DNA of 64,000 nt, taken from contig JANRLT010000033.1 in assembly GCA_033762255.1 (NCBI GenBank), positions 1 to 64,000 of the forward strand, given 5' to 3'. Positions 56,032 to 64,000 of the stretch are shown here, one piece after another; the first letter of the stretch is position 1, and each line of letters starts with the position of its first letter. A program made the translations under genes and the position numbers. The notes under the pieces were generated by a model. That model did not search any database. It saw only the letters and a list, made by a program, of their open reading frames with translations, and was not told the origin of the DNA. This stretch comes from Pirellulales bacterium. Lineage in GTDB: Bacteria > Planctomycetota > Planctomycetia > Pirellulales > JALHPA01.

Positions 56032-58863
56032 ATGCTTTCTATTTTTTCCCCCGCAAAATGGGGATTATGTCTGTGTTTTGTGGCTTTTATCAGCACACAA
56101 CTCCATGCCATCGACATCATCGGCATTCAGTATGCGGGGCTAGACCAACCGCGCATTAATGCCGTTTTGCGCCGCTCGCCCAATGGAGCCCCCCTGGTGG
56201 CGGATTTTGGCTTTGGCATCACTACCATCAATATTCAGGCCTTTTATGATACCGGTGCCAGCGGTTTACTACTAAGCGACCAAACAGCGGACTTTATGGG
56301 AATTGCCAAGTCTCGCTTTCCCGAACCAAACGGGCCGTTGGTCTCTTATTTTGACGTGGGTGTCGCCGGGGCCGAGGAATTTCACGTTTCCGAACCCCTA
56401 TATGTGGGCTTGGCGCCATTTGAAGATACCCTGGATGCGGAAAATCCAGCCAATTACACCCAAAACTTTGGCCCGATCCGCTTGCAGATGGCGTTTCCCC
56501 CCTCAAATCCCCTGTTAGATGGGTTAGACGTCTTTGGAATGCCTATTTTTGCGGGAAAAGTCGTGGTTATCGACCCCACCCCGGTCGATGTGGACCCCAC
56601 GATCGGTCTCCCCCTGGGGACGATGCGGACGTTTGTTTACAACCCTGGAACTCCCTTTAACCCCAATAGTCTCGCGACCAATCCCGGCATTCCCCCGACC
56701 CCCTATCAAGTGCAGATGAGCTACGCCCAACTGGACGAATTTACCGAAGTTGACCCTGTCGGGGCACCCGGCCCCACCCTCGCCCATAATCCGTTTATCG
56801 GTCCCAACCCCGTCCTTCAGCTCCACCCAAATCCCCCGACCGATAATACACCGCCGGTGGTTCTGGGTTATAACGGGCACCAAACAAGCGGGAGTTTGCT
56901 GCTCGATACCGGGGCGGCGGCATCAATGATCTCCAGCCGCGTGGCGGCCGATCTGCATGTGCGCTACCGGCCCGGCACGGAAGGGACCGAAAACCCCCGC
57001 CTCGAGGAATTTGATCCGCAAAACCCCCAATTGCCAGGCACCCTGGTCCCGGGACAATACACCCTGGAAGTGGGTGGAATTGGCGGGACCAAAAAAATCG
57101 CTGGGTTTTACCTAGACACGATGCTCTTACGAACTTTACAGGGAAATACTAGCGACTTTGGCGATCCAAATCACCTTAACTATGGCTTGGCACCGGTCCT
57201 GGTCAACGATATTTCGGTGCAAAACCCCACCACCGGGCAAGTTTTAACCATTGACGGGTTGATCGGCACGAATATGTTTGCCGCCAGTACCGAAATCATC
57301 GCCGGGCCAATCCCCAGCTTTGGCGATATTGTCGATGGACCGTTTCGCTGGGTCGTTGTGGATGAGCCGAATGGGCGGTTTTCCGTCCAACCAAAGGAAA
57401 TTCTAACGCCCAATCAATGGGCGCTGGCAGGTGGAGGGAACTGGTCTGAAGCAGCTAACTGGACGGAACAAGCCATTCCTAACAGTATTTTTGACCAGGC
57501 GCTTTTGGGTCAGAATTTTACCGGCGGAGGAAGTGTCGATCTTCAAAATCAAACGATCACGGTCGCCGGGCTTCGTTTTGATAATACCATGGCGGGCTAC
57601 ACGGTCGCGGCTAGCGGCACGGGCAAACTCATTTTAGAAGCCAACGGCAACAACCCCTATTTGACAAATTTGCTTAGCAATACTCAACAACACACGATTT
57701 CCGCGCCTGTGGAAATCCGGGGAAAACTGCATGTTTTAGCGGGAAATCAGCCAATTCAGCTGACGGGATCAACAACCTTTACCTCCGGGAGTTCGCTGGT
57801 GATAGAGACTGGCACACTGGCCTTTGCCCTGCCTCAGGGGGCAACTTCCACTTTGCCCCCGGGCATAACCGTGGAGGTTCAATCGGGGGCCAAACTAGAG
57901 TTAGGGGGGGTCGTATCCCCCCTAGGCAGCATCACCGGCAATAAAGCCGCTGTCATTACCACAGCCAGTGATAGCCAATTATCAATTACCGCGGGAAATC
58001 ATGTTTTAGGCCATGTTTCGGGCGAAATCAGCTTCGCCACGCCTTTGGGAGCCACGGTCGGCCAAACCTACTTATCCGCGGGAGCTACGCTATCCGTCAT
58101 GGGACTGCGGCTAAACCGGCTGGAACTAACGGCGGGAACAGCCAACCAACCCACGACGTTGACGGCTTTAACTACCGATGGCGGCTCTGACGGACTAGTG
58201 TTGCTGGACAATCGCCAAGCAAATGGCGGAAGCGGCATTCCGGGGCTGATTTTGGGCCAAAATAGCGTCCTGGACCTGCAAGACAACGATCTGGTGCTCC
58301 ATTATAGTTCCACCCCCAGTGACCCTAATCCGGGGGCTTTAATCACGCAATACGTCGATAATTTTTTCACCGACACGCCGAATCTCCCGCGGATCGCGTC
58401 TACCACGGTCCTGAACAGTGGCGGCACCCGCATCATTGTTCCGGTGGATAACGCCGTGGCAAATTTTGGAGATGTGGGGAATCCGTTTTATGATCTGACA
58501 CTAGGGAATTCGACGGCGGGAACCGGTTTTCAGCAAATTTTAGTGCGATTTACCTTTCCGGGGGATTACAACCTCGATGGCAAGGTGGATGGCCTGGATT
58601 ACTTGGTGGTGGACTCTAACCAGGGGTATATGGGGAGTGGCGGGGTAGGGGGGTGGATCTTTGGAGACGGAAATTTTGACGGAATCGTCGATACCGCCGA
58701 TTATTTGCCCGTGGACAGCTATTTAGGCTCGGGAATGGGAAATCCCCTGGCGGAGGCCACTGTAACCGCCACTCCCGAGCCAAATTCCGCGTGGGGGTTA
58801 GCTTTTTTGGCGGGACTGGGGGCGGGTTTCGGCCTTTTCCGCCGTCGGGCCAAAACAGCCTAA
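56032..58863 (+). CDS. Aspartyl-protease-like protein with dockerin-like and PEP-CTERM ends
   Basis: 943 residues. Signal peptide WGLCLCFVAFISTQLHA. Two pepsin/retropepsin-like Asp motifs occur, FYDTGASGLLLS near residue 74 and LLLDTGAAASMIS near residue 290, consistent with a two-lobed aspartic protease, though activity is unproven. From about residue 465 NWSEAANWTE starts an autotransporter-like repetitive beta region. The C-terminal 170 residues (DLQDNDLVLHY; GDVGNPFYDLTLGNST; PGDYNLDGKVDGLDY; GDGNFDGIVDTADYLP) are shared with the 1852-residue protein. It ends in TPEPNSAWGLAFLAGLG and a basic tail, a PEP-CTERM signal. Confidence 0.85.
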   Translation: MLSIFSPAKWGLCLCFVAFISTQLHAIDIIGIQYAGLDQPRINAVLRRSPNGAPLVADFGFGITTINIQAFYDTGASGLLLSDQTADFMGIAKSRFPEPNGPLVSYFDVGVAGAEEFHVSEPLYVGLAPFEDTLDAENPANYTQNFGPIRLQMAFPPSNPLLDGLDVFGMPIFAGKVVVIDPTPVDVDPTIGLPLGTMRTFVYNPGTPFNPNSLATNPGIPPTPYQVQMSYAQLDEFTEVDPVGAPGPTLAHNPFIGPNPVLQLHPNPPTDNTPPVVLGYNGHQTSGSLLLDTGAAASMISSRVAADLHVRYRPGTEGTENPRLEEFDPQNPQLPGTLVPGQYTLEVGGIGGTKKIAGFYLDTMLLRTLQGNTSDFGDPNHLNYGLAPVLVNDISVQNPTTGQVLTIDGLIGTNMFAASTEIIAGPIPSFGDIVDGPFRWVVVDEPNGRFSVQPKEILTPNQWALAGGGNWSEAANWTEQAIPNSIFDQALLGQNFTGGGSVDLQNQTITVAGLRFDNTMAGYTVAASGTGKLILEANGNNPYLTNLLSNTQQHTISAPVEIRGKLHVLAGNQPIQLTGSTTFTSGSSLVIETGTLAFALPQGATSTLPPGITVEVQSGAKLELGGVVSPLGSITGNKAAVITTASDSQLSITAGNHVLGHVSGEISFATPLGATVGQTYLSAGATLSVMGLRLNRLELTAGTANQPTTLTALTTDGGSDGLVLLDNRQANGGSGIPGLILGQNSVLDLQDNDLVLHYSSTPSDPNPGALITQYVDNFFTDTPNLPRIASTTVLNSGGTRIIVPVDNAVANFGDVGNPFYDLTLGNSTAGTGFQQILVRFTFPGDYNLDGKVDGLDYLVVDSNQGYMGSGGVGGWIFGDGNFDGIVDTADYLPVDSYLGSGMGNPLAEATVTATPEPNSAWGLAFLAGLGAGFGLFRRRAKTA

Positions 58864-59302
58864 AATCGGGCATTTTTTACTAAAAGCCCGCTAACGAATT
58901 TGCCAATTAGTGGACCTGGAGAAATTTTTTGGGATTTTTTGGACTGGACCTAGCCAAAAGCTTGACCAATCAGCTAGCTCTGGTTAAGGTATGTGTAGTT
59001 CGACCTGCGCAGTGCAGGCACGGTTGTAAGTGTTCTTTGAGGTAATCGCGGCAAAGATAGCCCAACGGAAATCTTCGCTTTTACTTCTCTTTTTTGGAGT
59101 CGCTAGTGGTTTAGAGAAGCAGCCATCTTCATTGGCTTGCTAGGTTTTCATCTCACGGGACGGAAGTCGGGTAACCGGCACTATACCCGCTTCTGAAGAA
59201 AGCACTAAATCACTTTTTCTGACTTACTTGGTTACGGTTGCACCTCATCATGGCAACCCACCAATTTACTCCGAGGCCTACACACTTAAGCGAGGATTGA
59301 AC
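58864..59302. other. Long leader upstream of the first PEP-CTERM paralogue
   Basis: About 440 bases. A weak hairpin CGGGC...GCCCG at 58866-58888 follows the previous gene. The last 45 bases hold the shared leader element. No gene is supported; a GTG frame from 59228 is rejected in favour of the ATG at 59303, which has GCGAGGA upstream. Confidence 0.5.
59262..59285 (+). promoter_or_regulatory. Leader element shared by PEP-CTERM paralogues (copy 1)
   Basis: AATTTACTCCGAGG then CCTACACAC, 17 bases before the ATG at 59303. It differs by one inserted base from the copy at 61931-61951. Confidence 0.65.
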
Positions 59303-60223
59303 ATGAACTTGAAGAACAAATTTTTGCTTGGCGCGATTGCAACTGTTGGCACTGGCATTTTTGCCGCCCCCGCCTTTTCCGCTTTGACCTACGATCTGCG
59401 CTTTGCCGATGGTACCAAGGTTAAAGACGCAGCTGTGGGCAATTACACAGTTAACCTATATGCCATCATCGATCAGGGAACTGGTGGATTTGCCGACGAT
59501 TCGATCACTGGCGGTCTGCTGAATATCTATAGCAGTTCCACTGGTGGCGGAGCCATGAACGCTGGTAGTGGTGTTACCGCCCGCGTTGCTCCCGGCACCG
59601 GCGCTTTGACCACCCCCAACCTCAGCTTGGCCACCACGGCTGACGCGTCAGGCGATCTGCTCCGTTCCACGGTCCCCAACACCGCTGGCACGGGTGACGG
59701 CATCCTCGACTGGGGTGCCGACGAACGCTACATCACGTCGGGTGGCGGTGCCACTGCCGCTAATCCCCTGTTGTCCAACTACTTTGTGAATGGCGCTTCA
59801 GTTGCCGCTACGACCCGTTCCTACAACTGGCGCTTCACCCAGCCGTTTGTTCCTGGGACAGCGATTCCTGGTGGAATTTCCCAAGCCTCCACCGTTCGTC
59901 CCAATTCCTGGGAAGTCCTGATTGGCCAATTTACAATTAATGTAAACGGTGTTGGTGGTACTGGTACGACTTCCTTTACTCCCTTTTCTTGGCACCGTAA
60001 TCGTGCCAGTTCCACGGCTCCCTCCGCCGCGGGTGGCAGTAACTACGTGCAAGACGGTGCCCTGGGTACGACTTTGCCGGGTGGTGTGAACGTACCTTAT
60101 GCCGATGGTTCCTTTAGCGGTGTGACATTTAATGGTGTCATTCCCGAACCTTCCACGATTGTCCTGTGCGGCTTGGCCGCCATCGCCAGTGTCTACGGAC
60201 TCCGTCGCCGCCTGACTGCCTAG
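59303..60223 (+). CDS. PEP-CTERM protein, paralogue 1 of 3
   Basis: 306 residues. Signal peptide KFLLGAIATVGTGIFAAPAFSA. The mature protein starts LTYDLRFADGTK and contains the family hallmark WGADERYITSGGGATAANP near residue 140, FRFTQPF-type NWRFTQPFVPG, and NSWEVLIGQFTINV. The C-terminus IPEPSTIVLCGLAAIASVYG plus LRRRLTA is a PEP-CTERM sorting signal, so exosortase processing and surface attachment are expected. The function of the ~240-residue mature domain is unknown. A strong terminator follows, so each paralogue is its own transcription unit. Confidence 0.88.
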   Translation: MNLKNKFLLGAIATVGTGIFAAPAFSALTYDLRFADGTKVKDAAVGNYTVNLYAIIDQGTGGFADDSITGGLLNIYSSSTGGGAMNAGSGVTARVAPGTGALTTPNLSLATTADASGDLLRSTVPNTAGTGDGILDWGADERYITSGGGATAANPLLSNYFVNGASVAATTRSYNWRFTQPFVPGTAIPGGISQASTVRPNSWEVLIGQFTINVNGVGGTGTTSFTPFSWHRNRASSTAPSAAGGSNYVQDGALGTTLPGGVNVPYADGSFSGVTFNGVIPEPSTIVLCGLAAIASVYGLRRRLTA

Positions 60224-60267
60224 TTGATGACTAGGGCAGATTGGTTATTCCTCGCTTTTTTTGTGCC

Positions 60268-60303
60268 AACGGGGTTGTCCAGTTCTTGGACAACCCCGTT
60301 TTT
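60268..60303 (+). terminator. Strong terminator after PEP-CTERM paralogue 1
   Basis: AACGGGGTTGTCCA (60268-60281) pairs perfectly with TGGACAACCCCGTT (60287-60300) and ends in five T. Confidence 0.92.
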
Positions 60304-60574
60304 GTATTGGCACACAGTCGGAAATGCTGATATCAATATTTTAATTTCTATAAAACTGCCCACCACAATTGCCAGCCTCATACTGGATTATTGTGAGAGA
60401 CGTGTGTGCATTAGGTATGTTTTGCATGTCGTTTCCCGCAAAAACATGTGAGAAAATGTGGGTTTTGTTATCAATTCAACAGTTTTCAACTACTTGTCCG
60501 TCCCCCCCGTTGATTTCGTTGACCTAGCGGAAAACCTCGTTATTTTCTTCTGTATGGCACCTATGTTTTGGTTA

Positions 60575-60587
60575 CCTACACACAGGA
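60575..60587 (+). promoter_or_regulatory. Leader element of paralogue 2 (short form)
   Basis: CCTACACAC at 60575-60583 directly followed by AGGAG, upstream of the ATG at 60596. Only this core of the longer leader is kept here. Confidence 0.5.
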
Positions 60588-60595
60588 GATTGCTA

Positions 60596-61558
60596 ATGCG
60601 TTTGCGGACACAACTTTTCACGGGAGCTCTGGCGGCGGCCTGCATCGGCCAGTATTGCCAGACCGGTTTGGCGGTCATGACGTATGACCTGCGCTTTGCC
60701 CCGGGAACCGTCGGAGCCACAGCCGACAACAAGACGGTCTTGAATCCCACCACCGGCAATTATGCCGTTGAACTCTATGCCATCATCGACCGTAACAACG
60801 ACACTTTTAATGACGACACCGTGACCGGCGGCGCTGTGAATATCTACAGCCAAAACACCGGCCTGGGTGCTCTGGCCGCTGGCACCAACAGCGGCGTAAC
60901 CGCGAAATTGGCTGTCCCCACGCCTAATTTCCAATTTGTGTCCACCGCCGATCAGTCCGGCAATTTGCAACGCGATGAAAATGGTATCGCCCAGCCGAAC
61001 GCCTTTGAAGCGGGCGTGAACTATGTGAGCGACGGCATTCTGGATTGGGGTGCTGACGAACGTTACATCACCAACGGTGGTGGTGCCACCGTGGCCAGCC
61101 CGATCCTGTCCGGTTATCACCGCGAAGGCTCGCTCATTAACGCCTCCAAGATCTATGCTTTCCGCTTTACGCAGCCATTTCAGTTGGGCCAAGCTGTGAT
61201 CCCCGGTGTTTCTCAGCCATCCGCCGCCCGTGCCAATTCCTGGGAAGTGCTCGTGGGTCGGTTTACGATTGCGGTTAATGGATTAAACCCCGCCGCTGGC
61301 GGCAACGATGTGACCTCGTTTGTTCCGTTTTCCCAAAACCGCTACCGCGCGACCAGCACCTCCCCGACGACCAACGCCGGTGCCAACTACAGCCAAGATG
61401 GGAGCGCCCCCAACACCAATCCTGGTGGTTTGAATGTGCCGTTTGGACCTGATTCCTTTAGTGGTGTCAGCTTTGTCGTCCCCGAACCTTCCACCTACCT
61501 CATGTGCGGGTTGGCCGCATTTGCGGGGTTGTTCGGCCTCCGTCGTAAGTTTGCGTAG
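60596..61558 (+). CDS. PEP-CTERM protein, paralogue 2 of 3
   Basis: 320 residues from the ATG at 60596; upstream in-frame codons lie in the leader. Signal peptide LFTGALAAACIGQYCQTGLA. It shares the whole mature domain with its neighbours: MTYDLRFAPG, DGILDWGADERYITNGG, FRFTQPFQLG, NSWEVLVGRFTIAVNG, and ends VPEPSTYLMCGLAAFAGLFG-LRRKFA. It is the most divergent of the three. Function unknown; PEP-CTERM sorting expected. Confidence 0.88.
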   Translation: MRLRTQLFTGALAAACIGQYCQTGLAVMTYDLRFAPGTVGATADNKTVLNPTTGNYAVELYAIIDRNNDTFNDDTVTGGAVNIYSQNTGLGALAAGTNSGVTAKLAVPTPNFQFVSTADQSGNLQRDENGIAQPNAFEAGVNYVSDGILDWGADERYITNGGGATVASPILSGYHREGSLINASKIYAFRFTQPFQLGQAVIPGVSQPSAARANSWEVLVGRFTIAVNGLNPAAGGNDVTSFVPFSQNRYRATSTSPTTNAGANYSQDGSAPNTNPGGLNVPFGPDSFSGVSFVVPEPSTYLMCGLAAFAGLFGLRRKFA

Positions 61559-61584
61559 TTTGCGGTGACTAGAAAAACCAGCTA

Positions 61585-61616
61585 GGTGGGGCTGTCATGA
61601 CCGTGACAGCCCCACC
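61585..61616 (+). terminator. Terminator after PEP-CTERM paralogue 2
   Basis: GGTGGGGCTGTCA (61585-61597) pairs with TGACAGCCCCACC (61604-61616). The following AATTTGT is a weak T-run. Confidence 0.8.
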
Positions 61617-61930
61617 AATTTGTCCCATGAGGCAGGTTGGAAGAATTAGGAATTCTGGCGGAGAACCTCCCTTTTGAATCCAGGCAGTACTCATGATCCT
61701 GAATCATCACTAACTTACTAATCAACACTCAACTTATGGCAAATTGGGCAATTTTTTCCATAAGTGAATGTAATGACTAGAGTTACGCCAAATATACCAC
61801 CAACAAAACCAGCTAATGCCAGTTAAATACTGGGGATTTGTGAGGATTATTTTAGTTTTTTCTTAGATTCCAGATTACCAAATTGTTGACTCCCTTTGTG
61901 GCTGCATGTTAAAGTAAGCCTCGGCACCCA

Positions 61931-61951
61931 ATTACTCCGAGGCCTACACAC
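61931..61951 (+). promoter_or_regulatory. Leader element shared by PEP-CTERM paralogues (copy 2)
   Basis: AATTACTCCGAGG then CCTACACAC, 15 bases before the ATG at 61967, with AGGGAG between as ribosome binding site. Confidence 0.65.
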
Positions 61952-61966
61952 ATAGGGAGAAAGCTC

Positions 61967-62914
61967 ATGAGTTTGCAGAAGAAAATGCTGGCGGGCATGA
62001 TTGCCGCCGCATGCTCGGGCATGTTTGCCACGAGCGCGATGGCCATTATGACATACGATCTTCGTTTTGCTGATGGCACCAAATCTAAGGACGCCCTTCC
62101 TGGCGCCTACGTTGTTAATCTTTATGCCGTGATCGATCATGGCGGAGATAACAGCTTTAACACTGACAGCATCACTGGCGGTCAGCTTAACATTTACAGC
62201 GGGAAGGTTGGCGCGGGGGCTGTCGCCCCGGGCACCAATAGCGGCGTTACCGCCCGTGCCGCCACGCTGCCGACTCCGAATTTTAGCTTAGCCACAACCG
62301 CCGATGAGTCTGGCGATTTGATGCGTGATGCCAATGGCGCTGCCGCTCCGAACAATGTTGCCGACGTCCTGGGCGACGGCATTTTGGACTGGGGTGCTGA
62401 CGAACGCTACATCACCTCGGGTGGTGGCGCGACTGCGGCCAATCCCCTCCTTTCGGCTTATCACCGTCAAGGAGTGTTGATTCCCAGCGCGACCAAGACC
62501 TACAACTGGCGGTTCACCCAGCCATTTGTTCCTGGCGGCGCAGTTGTTCCCGGCGTTTCGCAGCCCTCCAGTACCCGTCCCAATTCTTGGGAAGTTTTGA
62601 TTGGGGAGTTTACAATTAATCTGGCGGGTGTCTCCCCCACGGCGACCCCCACGGATAAGACCACCTTTACCCCGTTCTCGCATCATCGGATTCGTTCGAC
62701 CTCCTCGGCCCCCTCGGCCTCGGGTGGTTCGAACTACTCCACCGACGGCAACCTGCCTGGCAGCAATCCTGGTGGCGTGTCGACCCCCTACGGTGAAGGC
62801 GCTTTCAGCGGGGTTGAATTTGTCGGGATCGTTCCCGAACCTTCGACTTACGTTCTGTGCGGTTTAGCTGCAGCGGCTGGCGTATTTGGCCTCCGTCGCC
62901 GCAAGACCAGCTAA
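61967..62914 (+). CDS. PEP-CTERM protein, paralogue 3 of 3
   Basis: 315 residues. Signal peptide MLAGMIAAACSGMFATSAMA. The mature part follows the shared plan: MTYDLRFADGTKSKD, VVNLYAVIDHGGDNSFNTDS, LPTPNFSLATTADESGDLMR, WGADERYITSGGGATAANP, NWRFTQPFVPGG, NSWEVLIGEFTINL. It ends VPEPSTYVLCGLAAAAGVFG-LRRRKTS. It is closest to paralogue 1 in sequence and in its leader. Function unknown. Confidence 0.88.
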   Translation: MSLQKKMLAGMIAAACSGMFATSAMAIMTYDLRFADGTKSKDALPGAYVVNLYAVIDHGGDNSFNTDSITGGQLNIYSGKVGAGAVAPGTNSGVTARAATLPTPNFSLATTADESGDLMRDANGAAAPNNVADVLGDGILDWGADERYITSGGGATAANPLLSAYHRQGVLIPSATKTYNWRFTQPFVPGGAVVPGVSQPSSTRPNSWEVLIGEFTINLAGVSPTATPTDKTTFTPFSHHRIRSTSSAPSASGGSNYSTDGNLPGSNPGGVSTPYGEGAFSGVEFVGIVPEPSTYVLCGLAAAAGVFGLRRRKTS

Positions 62915-62949
62915 CACATGCACTGACGAGTAATTAGGGTTTCTTTGCC

Positions 62950-62983
62950 ACAGGGCTGTCCATTCGGACAGCCCTGTTTTTTT
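62950..62983 (+). terminator. Strong terminator after PEP-CTERM paralogue 3
   Basis: ACAGGGCTGTCC (62950-62961) pairs with GGACAGCCCTGT (62966-62977) and runs into eight T. The stem core GGGCTGTC is also present in the terminator of paralogue 2. Confidence 0.92.
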
Positions 62984-63159
62984 ATATCGATGCCTAGCAT
63001 GGCGGTTGTATTCTATTGAAATCAGCTAAAAAATTAACTCGCTGTTTAATGCAGCGCCCGCTCATACTAATCGCAAGCAATCATAGCGCGGTTTTGACCC
63101 AATTTACCAAGGGATTCCGCAACTCTGTTGGAGTAGGAGTTCCTTGGTTTTGTTCTTTT

Positions 63160-63390
63160 TCCCAGGGTTGTTCGCTGCGCTCCAACCCGTGGGCTTTGTT
63201 ACCCAGTTTTATCATTGAACAGGGCGCGTTGCGGTACCCCCTCTCCCTCTGGGAGAGGGTCGGGGTGAGGGAAGCTACCGCAACGCGGTTATGGAACTCA
63301 GCCCAGGGTTGCCGCGTAGCGGCTACCCTGGGAATACCCCCTCTCCCTCTGGGAGAGGGCCGGGGTGAGGGAAGCTACCGCAACGCGGTT
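63160..63390. repeat. Nested palindromic repeats between PEP-CTERM trio and purB
   Basis: Two copies of CCCTCTCCC-TCT-GGGAGAGGG followed by (T/C)CGGGGTGAGGGAAG and TACCGCAACGCGGTT lie at 63238-63290 and 63337-63390. The first is enclosed by CGCGTTGCGGTA (63226-63237) and TACCGCAACGCG, a perfect 12-base inverted repeat. Between them CCCAGGGT...ACCCTGGG (63302-63332) encloses GCCGC-GTA-GCGGC. At 63161-63193 CCCAGGGTTG...CAACCCGTGGG is a related palindrome. The whole region 62984-63468 has no supported gene. Confidence 0.8.
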
Positions 63391-63468
63391 GTGTCATGCG
63401 GAAATAACCCAGTATTACTGGGTGCCTTCATAAATTGCTAGCCGCGCTATGTTTAGCTAGAAAGCGTA

Positions 63469-64000
63469 TTAAACCCGCACTTCCGCCGCCAGAGCCGCAT
63501 GATGGCGATATTTTTGGCGGATCGGCCCTACCACTTCGTCCAAAAATTCCCTGGTCTGCTGTCCCGCGCGACCCGTGAATTGGCTCGTTTCCATGGCCGC
63601 GTTCAGATCAATCCCCGCAAAATCCGGATCACGTTTGAGGCGTTCCAGCAGATCGTTGGGTAATCCCTGTTCTTTCACCTGCTTCGCGGCTTCCACGCTT
63701 GCCAGGCGGATTCGTTCGTGCAGTTCCTGGCGATCCCCCCCCGCCGAAACCGCCGCCATGAGCAAACTTTCGGTCGCCATAAAAGGCAGTTCCTCACGCA
63801 AATTGCGTTCTATCACCCGGGGATAAACCACCAGACCCGCGGCAATATTTTCATAGAGGATTAAAATCGATTCCACGGCCAAAAAAGCCTGGGGGATCAC
63901 CAACCGGCGGTTCGCGCTATCATCCAGCGTCCGTTCCATCCATTGCGTGGCGGCAGTTTGTGCGGTGTTTTCGGCTAAACTAATGGCATAACGCGCCAGC
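63469..64000 (-). CDS. purB: Adenylosuccinate lyase (C-terminal part, runs off window)
   Basis: The last ~176 codons of a gene entering from the right edge. The translation [40 protein letters not shown], then [20 protein letters not shown] and EETSQF-type [18 protein letters not shown], matches the C-terminal region of PurB, which releases fumarate from adenylosuccinate and SAICAR in purine synthesis. The signature loop SSxMPxKxNP lies outside the window. No operon partner is visible on the left, where repeats follow. Confidence 0.9.

Follow-up and report, generated by a model that had tools for sequence, protein, structure and literature searches.

The stretch of DNA considered here, called the window, comprises positions 1 to 64,000 of contig JANRLT010000033.1 from a Pirellulales bacterium (GCA_033762255.1; genome of 5.47 Mb in 72 contigs). 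Toward its 3′ end it carries three consecutive genes for paralogous PEP-CTERM proteins, termed copies 1 to 3 or the trio. This account deals with two elements found at these genes: a short upstream sequence, the leader, and a separate GCTC box touching the start codon. The features of the locus are as follows.

59266-59285, forward strand: leader of copy 1, TTACTCCGAGGCCTACACAC (from the sequence and a genome search)
59292-59302, forward strand: Shine-Dalgarno sequence without box, copy 1, GAGGATTGAAC
59303-60223, forward strand: copy 1, PEP-CTERM protein of 306 amino acids (translation of the open reading frame; TIGR02595 and PF07589 scans)
60268-60300, forward strand: 3′ hairpin with T-rich tail, copy 1 (stem-core search, terminator scan)
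60575-60583, forward strand: leader core of copy 2, CCTACACAC (sequence comparison)
60585-60595, forward strand: degenerate box (GCTA), copy 2, GGAGATTGCTA
60596-61558, forward strand: copy 2, PEP-CTERM protein of 320 amino acids (above both the TIGR02595 and the PF07589 cut-off)
61585-61616, forward strand: 3′ hairpin without T-run, copy 2 (stem-core search)
61932-61951, forward strand: leader of copy 3, TTACTCCGAGGCCTACACAC (from the sequence and a genome search)
61956-61966, forward strand: Shine-Dalgarno sequence and GCTC box touching the start codon, copy 3, GGAGAAAGCTC
61967-62914, forward strand: copy 3, PEP-CTERM protein of 315 amino acids (above both the TIGR02595 and the PF07589 cut-off)
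62950-62977, forward strand: 3′ hairpin with T-run, copy 3 (stem-core search, terminator scan)

As the original prediction held, the genes form a tandem of PEP-CTERM paralogues; the proteins of 306, 320 and 315 residues show 54 to 65% pairwise identity and reach a curated cut-off for the PEP-CTERM domain when their C-terminal domains are tested with TIGR02595 and PF07589. Copy 1 scores 16.1 bits with TIGR02595 (cut-off, 16) and 18.6 bits with PF07589 (cut-off, 20.7) in the protein scan, and 23.3 with PF07589, above the cut-off, in the genome scan. The hallmark WGADERYITSGGGATAANP, which had been ascribed to all three proteins, is identical in copies 1 and 3, but copy 2 has the version WGADERYITNGGGATVASP. 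By eye, the N termini show a basic start followed by a hydrophobic stretch and resemble signal peptides. The trio probably consists of exported, exosortase-sorted surface proteins, and an exosortase gene in the same genome is likely from the 53 PF07589 matches used here, 43 of them above and 10 below the cut-off. The trio resembles the PEP-CTERM/EpsH exosortase system in its C-terminal PEP motif, hydrophobic stretch, and basic tail as well as in its separate genes, long upstream regions, and lineage-specific expansion of paralogues (PMC1569441). Unlike known PEP-CTERM proteins, the trio has an exported domain of ∼250 residues that matches no Pfam or NCBIfam family outside the PEP-CTERM tail and has no relative among PDB sequences up to an E value of 1. 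An AlphaFold2 model of this domain built from 7 sequences is poor, with a mean predicted local distance difference test (pLDDT) score of 51, and a Foldseek search with it gives nothing at an E value of ≤0.001, the best being 0.015.

The duplication is old, because the four-fold degenerate sites are near saturation and the remaining upstream DNA has no residual similarity. Between copies, 35 of 101, 48 of 121, and 45 of 110 four-fold sites are identical (35 to 41%), compared to ∼0.33 expected from base composition. Upstream DNA outside the leader and the hairpin shows identities of 0.63 to 0.70, compared to 0.67 to 0.73 in six random alignments. The leader and the core of the 3′ hairpin have been retained, most simply by selection, because the neutral positions around them are randomized. 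The duplication took the control regions along, as had been proposed. The accompanying proposal, that a leader absent elsewhere would signify nothing but recent duplication, fails because the duplication is old.

The leaders of copies 1 and 3 share 20 identical bases (TTACTCCGAGGCCTACACAC), compared to a longest common string of 12 in 200 Markov-resampled pairs, and copy 2 retains the core CCTACACAC, in line with the description given beforehand. This core is common to all three copies, and none of 20,000 random triples from the last 60 upstream bases in this genome shares any 9-mer. The gap from the end of the leader to the Shine-Dalgarno sequence is 1 to 6 nucleotides in all copies. The full leader with up to three mismatches occurs at only the two known places in the whole genome, the motif CCTACAC is present in 0 of 50 upstream regions of other PEP-CTERM genes and 0 of 297 controls, and three paralogues dispersed in the genome lack the leader. 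The core with GR and ATG behind it, spaced as for a ribosome binding site, is found at four places in the genome (two for the reversed control), namely, the trio and one place that looks coding by eye. In 195 other genomes, every leader match among the matches listed has at least 2 mismatches; the number per genome, again among the matches listed, is close to the level of the reversed control, and some matches belong by eye to one recurrent coding stretch. TACACAC alone is found at 2 of 50 other PEP-CTERM genes versus 2 of 297 controls (P = 0.10), and ACACAC is found at 3 of 50 versus 2 of 297 (P = 0.02, uncorrected). The counts for CCTACAC and for the full leader rule out a PEP-CTERM-wide site, and the suggested search upstream of other PEP-CTERM genes came back empty. 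The leader looks like a functional, retained site private to the trio because it survived while the four-fold sites and the remaining upstream DNA were randomized. The earlier idea of a common regulatory site can therefore be kept for the trio, where the leader appears functional, but not for the other PEP-CTERM genes, from which it is absent.

Several further observations concern the leader and its surroundings. No Rfam family matches positions 58800 to 63500 up to an E value of 1. In copy 3 (positions 61918 to 61943), a 7-bp hairpin, GCCTCGG..CCGAGGC, has part of the leader as its right arm; this hairpin is lacking in copy 1. A sigma-54 or extracytoplasmic function (ECF) promoter at the leader was considered by eye only and set aside for its unsuitable spacings. 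Between copies 1 and 2, at positions 60400 to 60415, ACGTGTGTGCATTAGG resembles by eye an interrupted reverse complement of CCTACACAC. The sequence TACACACCGTGAGG stands just 5′ of the start in two PEP-CTERM genes of different genomes, L059 (C21:60594) and L213 (G044), a pair that could be due to chance or be a distant echo of the trio leader core.

The stem core of the 3′ hairpins, GGGNTGTC..GACANCCC, is found at exactly the three trio 3′ ends in 5.47 Mb (0 for the reversed control), with a single U-A/C-G exchange within it. A strong related hairpin does follow each gene, as predicted, but that of copy 2, which is without a T-run, does not qualify as a canonical intrinsic terminator. The terminator scan lists the hairpins of copies 1 and 3 and not that of copy 2; its total of 8 is not above that of shuffled sequences (6.2 ± 2.5), and the two long stems are distinct by length only. 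The hairpins are weaker evidence than the leader because a stem may diverge more slowly simply through its base pairing.

The second element is shared by many of the PEP-CTERM genes of this genome. GCTC adjoining the start codon behind a Shine-Dalgarno sequence is present at 19 of 53 PEP-CTERM starts, compared to 2 of 297 controls (P = 2e-15); without the trio, the count is 18 of 50, and both positive controls have TTG starts. With a Shine-Dalgarno sequence and ATG required in both sets, the box is found at 18 of 42 PEP-CTERM starts and at 0 of 77 controls, 40 of which look signal bearing. The three dispersed paralogues carry the box, as copy 3 does, that on contig C44 reading GCTC-GTG. GCTC lies at offset −4 in 19 genes and at any other offset in at most 1 gene, with a variable distance of 2 to 5 nucleotides to the Shine-Dalgarno sequence. 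The pattern GGAGN(1-4)GCTCATG, which does not depend on start calls, occurs at 20 places in the genome (reversed pattern, 0). Sixteen of these begin open reading frames (ORFs) of at least 150 amino acids, and 14 of the 16 are PEP-CTERM genes, the other two being L175 and L181; 12 of the 14 are in the PF07589 list, L169 and L177 were judged by the tail motif only, and three of the 14 were judged by the full frame, as the locus stretch is incomplete.

The box was first noticed post hoc among 22 starts, with the dispersed paralogues having been seen earlier. A largely different gene set gives 10 of 31 PEP-CTERM genes versus 4 of 315 others, and two of these 4 proved to be PEP-CTERM genes; 28 of the 31 genes lie outside the initial 22, and the 10 positives comprise 7 new genes along with the previously seen copy 3 and two paralogues. 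In the pooled set, 2 of 55 places were dropped: one had no sequence available, and in the other, the C44 paralogue, the script missed the start of the frame. The genes carrying the box fall into 15 of 33 protein clusters (E value of ≤1e-4), so that shared protein ancestry is not a ready explanation for it. The mean similarity of the upstream regions of these genes from −44 to −13 is 0.299, compared to 0.252 for controls, and the T fraction further upstream is 0.44 in box genes, 0.34 in other PEP-CTERM genes, and 0.26 in controls. The box occupies positions −4 to −1 precisely, whatever its spacing from the Shine-Dalgarno sequence, which suggests an action at translation initiation, as a transcription factor would have no reason for such fixing. 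Masking of the Shine-Dalgarno sequence by the box is marginal and is not claimed.

The genome contains six full-length members of the trio's protein family, i.e., the trio and the three dispersed paralogues of contigs C7, C29, and C44; the family search gave 16 matches, the remaining 10 of which span the C-terminal part only. The sole full-length relative in the 195 other genomes (up to 11 candidates scored per genome) is a remote one, ∼30% identical, in G001, the nearest genome in the same taxonomic family, and in the 15 further genomes with a match, the alignment is confined to the C-terminal part. No additional full-length member was found in 397 sampled genomes of the class (up to 5 candidates scored per genome); one match in this sample, in G233, covers positions 172 to 315 of 318 (E value of 9e-6) and may be a remote relative. 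Of two scans of a contig database, one was without a match and the other gave only the same G001 record. The protein tree groups copies 2 and 3 (92/93) and leaves the trio as a single clade unresolved (55/9); with G001 included, most forks remain open.

The gene directly upstream of the trio (56032-58863) encodes a 943-residue protein with an aspartyl-protease match (PF13975 and PF13650), a dockerin-like match slightly below the cut-off, and, by eye, a PEP-like tail. Downstream lies an interspersed repeat of ∼400 bases (63061-63460) with two internal near-copies of 59 bases (63235-63293 and 63335-63393). Related copies of this repeat, ∼70 to 90% identical, occur at several other places in the genome, including beside the C7 paralogue, in examined DNA that is biased to PEP-CTERM loci.

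The reading that we somewhat favor is that of an old tandem trio with a private leader, together with a separate start-codon box in a set of PEP-CTERM genes. Each trio gene likely lies in its own transcription unit; the leader stands directly before the Shine-Dalgarno sequence, and the gene is followed by a hairpin related in sequence to those of the other copies. The leader would be a cis element confined to the trio, probably located at the 5′ end of the messenger RNA (mRNA) and acting beside the ribosome binding site. The second element, GGAG-N-(C)GCTC-start codon, is present at roughly one in three PEP-CTERM genes of the genome and probably tunes or coregulates translation initiation of this set. 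More tentatively, and with doubt prevailing, these genes may form a PEP-CTERM translational regulon that is marked by the GGAG-N-CGCTC box and read by a trans-acting small RNA or an RNA-binding protein, the trio being set apart by its private leader.

Other explanations of the leader differ in how well they fit these data. Its restriction to two genomic places when up to three mismatches are allowed and its absence from the dispersed paralogues would suit a neutral leftover of a recent duplication; this is highly improbable, since the four-fold sites are near saturation, the flanking upstream DNA is dissimilar, and 20 identical neutral bases would not survive, so that the four-fold-site comparison already largely refutes it. 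Recent gene conversion over a short tract could have copied the leader between copies 1 and 3 without selection, which would agree with the abrupt ends of the 20-nucleotide identity and with a tree that puts copy 3 nearer copy 2 (92/93) even though its leader most resembles that of copy 1. Such an event is nevertheless improbable: CCTACACAC is still in place in copy 2, the tract is very short for conversion, and the silent sites of copies 1 and 3 differ, by eye, even in the most conserved motif. A DNA site, either an operator or part of the promoter of an unusual sigma factor, in place of an RNA element is possible, if doubtful. The leader sequence is conserved without a conserved hairpin, and a DNA site that includes a sigma-54 motif serves the PEP-CTERM genes of Proteobacteria (PMC1569441), but the leader ends 1 to 6 nucleotides before the Shine-Dalgarno sequence in all copies, and in copy 3 the strongest promoter-like match (61886-61915) lies upstream of the leader, although such matches are not above chance. 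The GCTC box, for its part, could be a gene-start cassette inherited from the expansion of the PEP-CTERM family and not a functional element. We regard this as rather unlikely. In its favor, expansions of PEP-CTERM genes within particular lineages have been described (PMC1569441), and few starts in relatives have the box; against it, the genes with the box come from 15 of 33 clusters, and their upstream regions are little more alike than those of controls, while the four bases are exact.

A number of results weigh against the favored reading of a private leader and a translational box. The folding results do not support a conserved RNA structure at the leader, the 7-bp hairpin folding in copy 3 and not in copy 1, and the three promoter-like matches are at chance level (2.7 ± 1.4), so that we infer rather than observe the presence of the leader in the mRNA. 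Copies 1 and 3, and likewise copies 2 and 3, agree at 40 to 41% of their four-fold sites, a little more than 33%, which makes saturation near and not complete. The box is missing from 34 of 53 PEP-CTERM starts, and copy 1 lacks it while copy 2 has GCTA; hence, it is not needed in the trio's protein family. Gene starts of both the PEP-CTERM and the control sets were called by a simple script. The accessibility of the Shine-Dalgarno sequence in box genes is only marginally different (P = 0.045, one of six tests), and the one strong difference is that PEP-CTERM genes lacking the box fold more weakly (P = 4e-6). The box is also rare in relatives, with 2 of 45 distinct readable PEP-CTERM starts, a few of them doubtful (0 of 15 from 24 loci; 0 of 9, one gene being already in the first set; and 2 of 22 from 30 loci), which leaves an order-wide PEP-CTERM feature unsupported. 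Four of 29 GGAGNNCGCTCATG loci of relatives from a longer list begin PEP-CTERM ORFs, three of these in one genus, and two more loci are open-ended. From these sequences, the box appears to belong chiefly to this lineage and to occur elsewhere as a trace.

Most PEP-CTERM genes are single-gene units with long upstream regions, as described by Haft and colleagues (PMC1569441). A shared upstream site with a sigma-54 motif, averaging 71 nucleotides from the start codon, is reported for Proteobacteria only, and many PEP-CTERM genes have upstream regions outside this class (PMC1569441). The same paper leaves the control of PEP-CTERM genes outside Proteobacteria as an open question (PMC1569441). Floc formation in one bacterium needs a PEP-CTERM gene (PMC9850573), and a cyanobacterial exosortase mutant has lost motility and biofilm formation (PMC12188702). 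Like the box, proteobacterial motif 1 with its sigma-54 site (PrsK/PrsR) is a cis element common to many PEP-CTERM genes of one genome; in contrast to the box, four bases that touch the start codon, it is a DNA promoter site ∼71 nucleotides away. In a general comparison, the box resembles the target sites of trans-acting small RNAs or proteins at ribosome binding sites, which are likewise short conserved sequences placed at a set distance from the start codons of many mRNAs. A literature search covering titles and abstract openings found no report of such a start-codon box at PEP-CTERM genes, and at that level, the box is unreported.

The start-codon box, which arose from testing the leader, is the more interesting of the two results. 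It would point to translational control and not to the known sigma-54 promoter control, and a four-base box at many unrelated PEP-CTERM starts makes the control of PEP-CTERM genes outside Proteobacteria directly testable.

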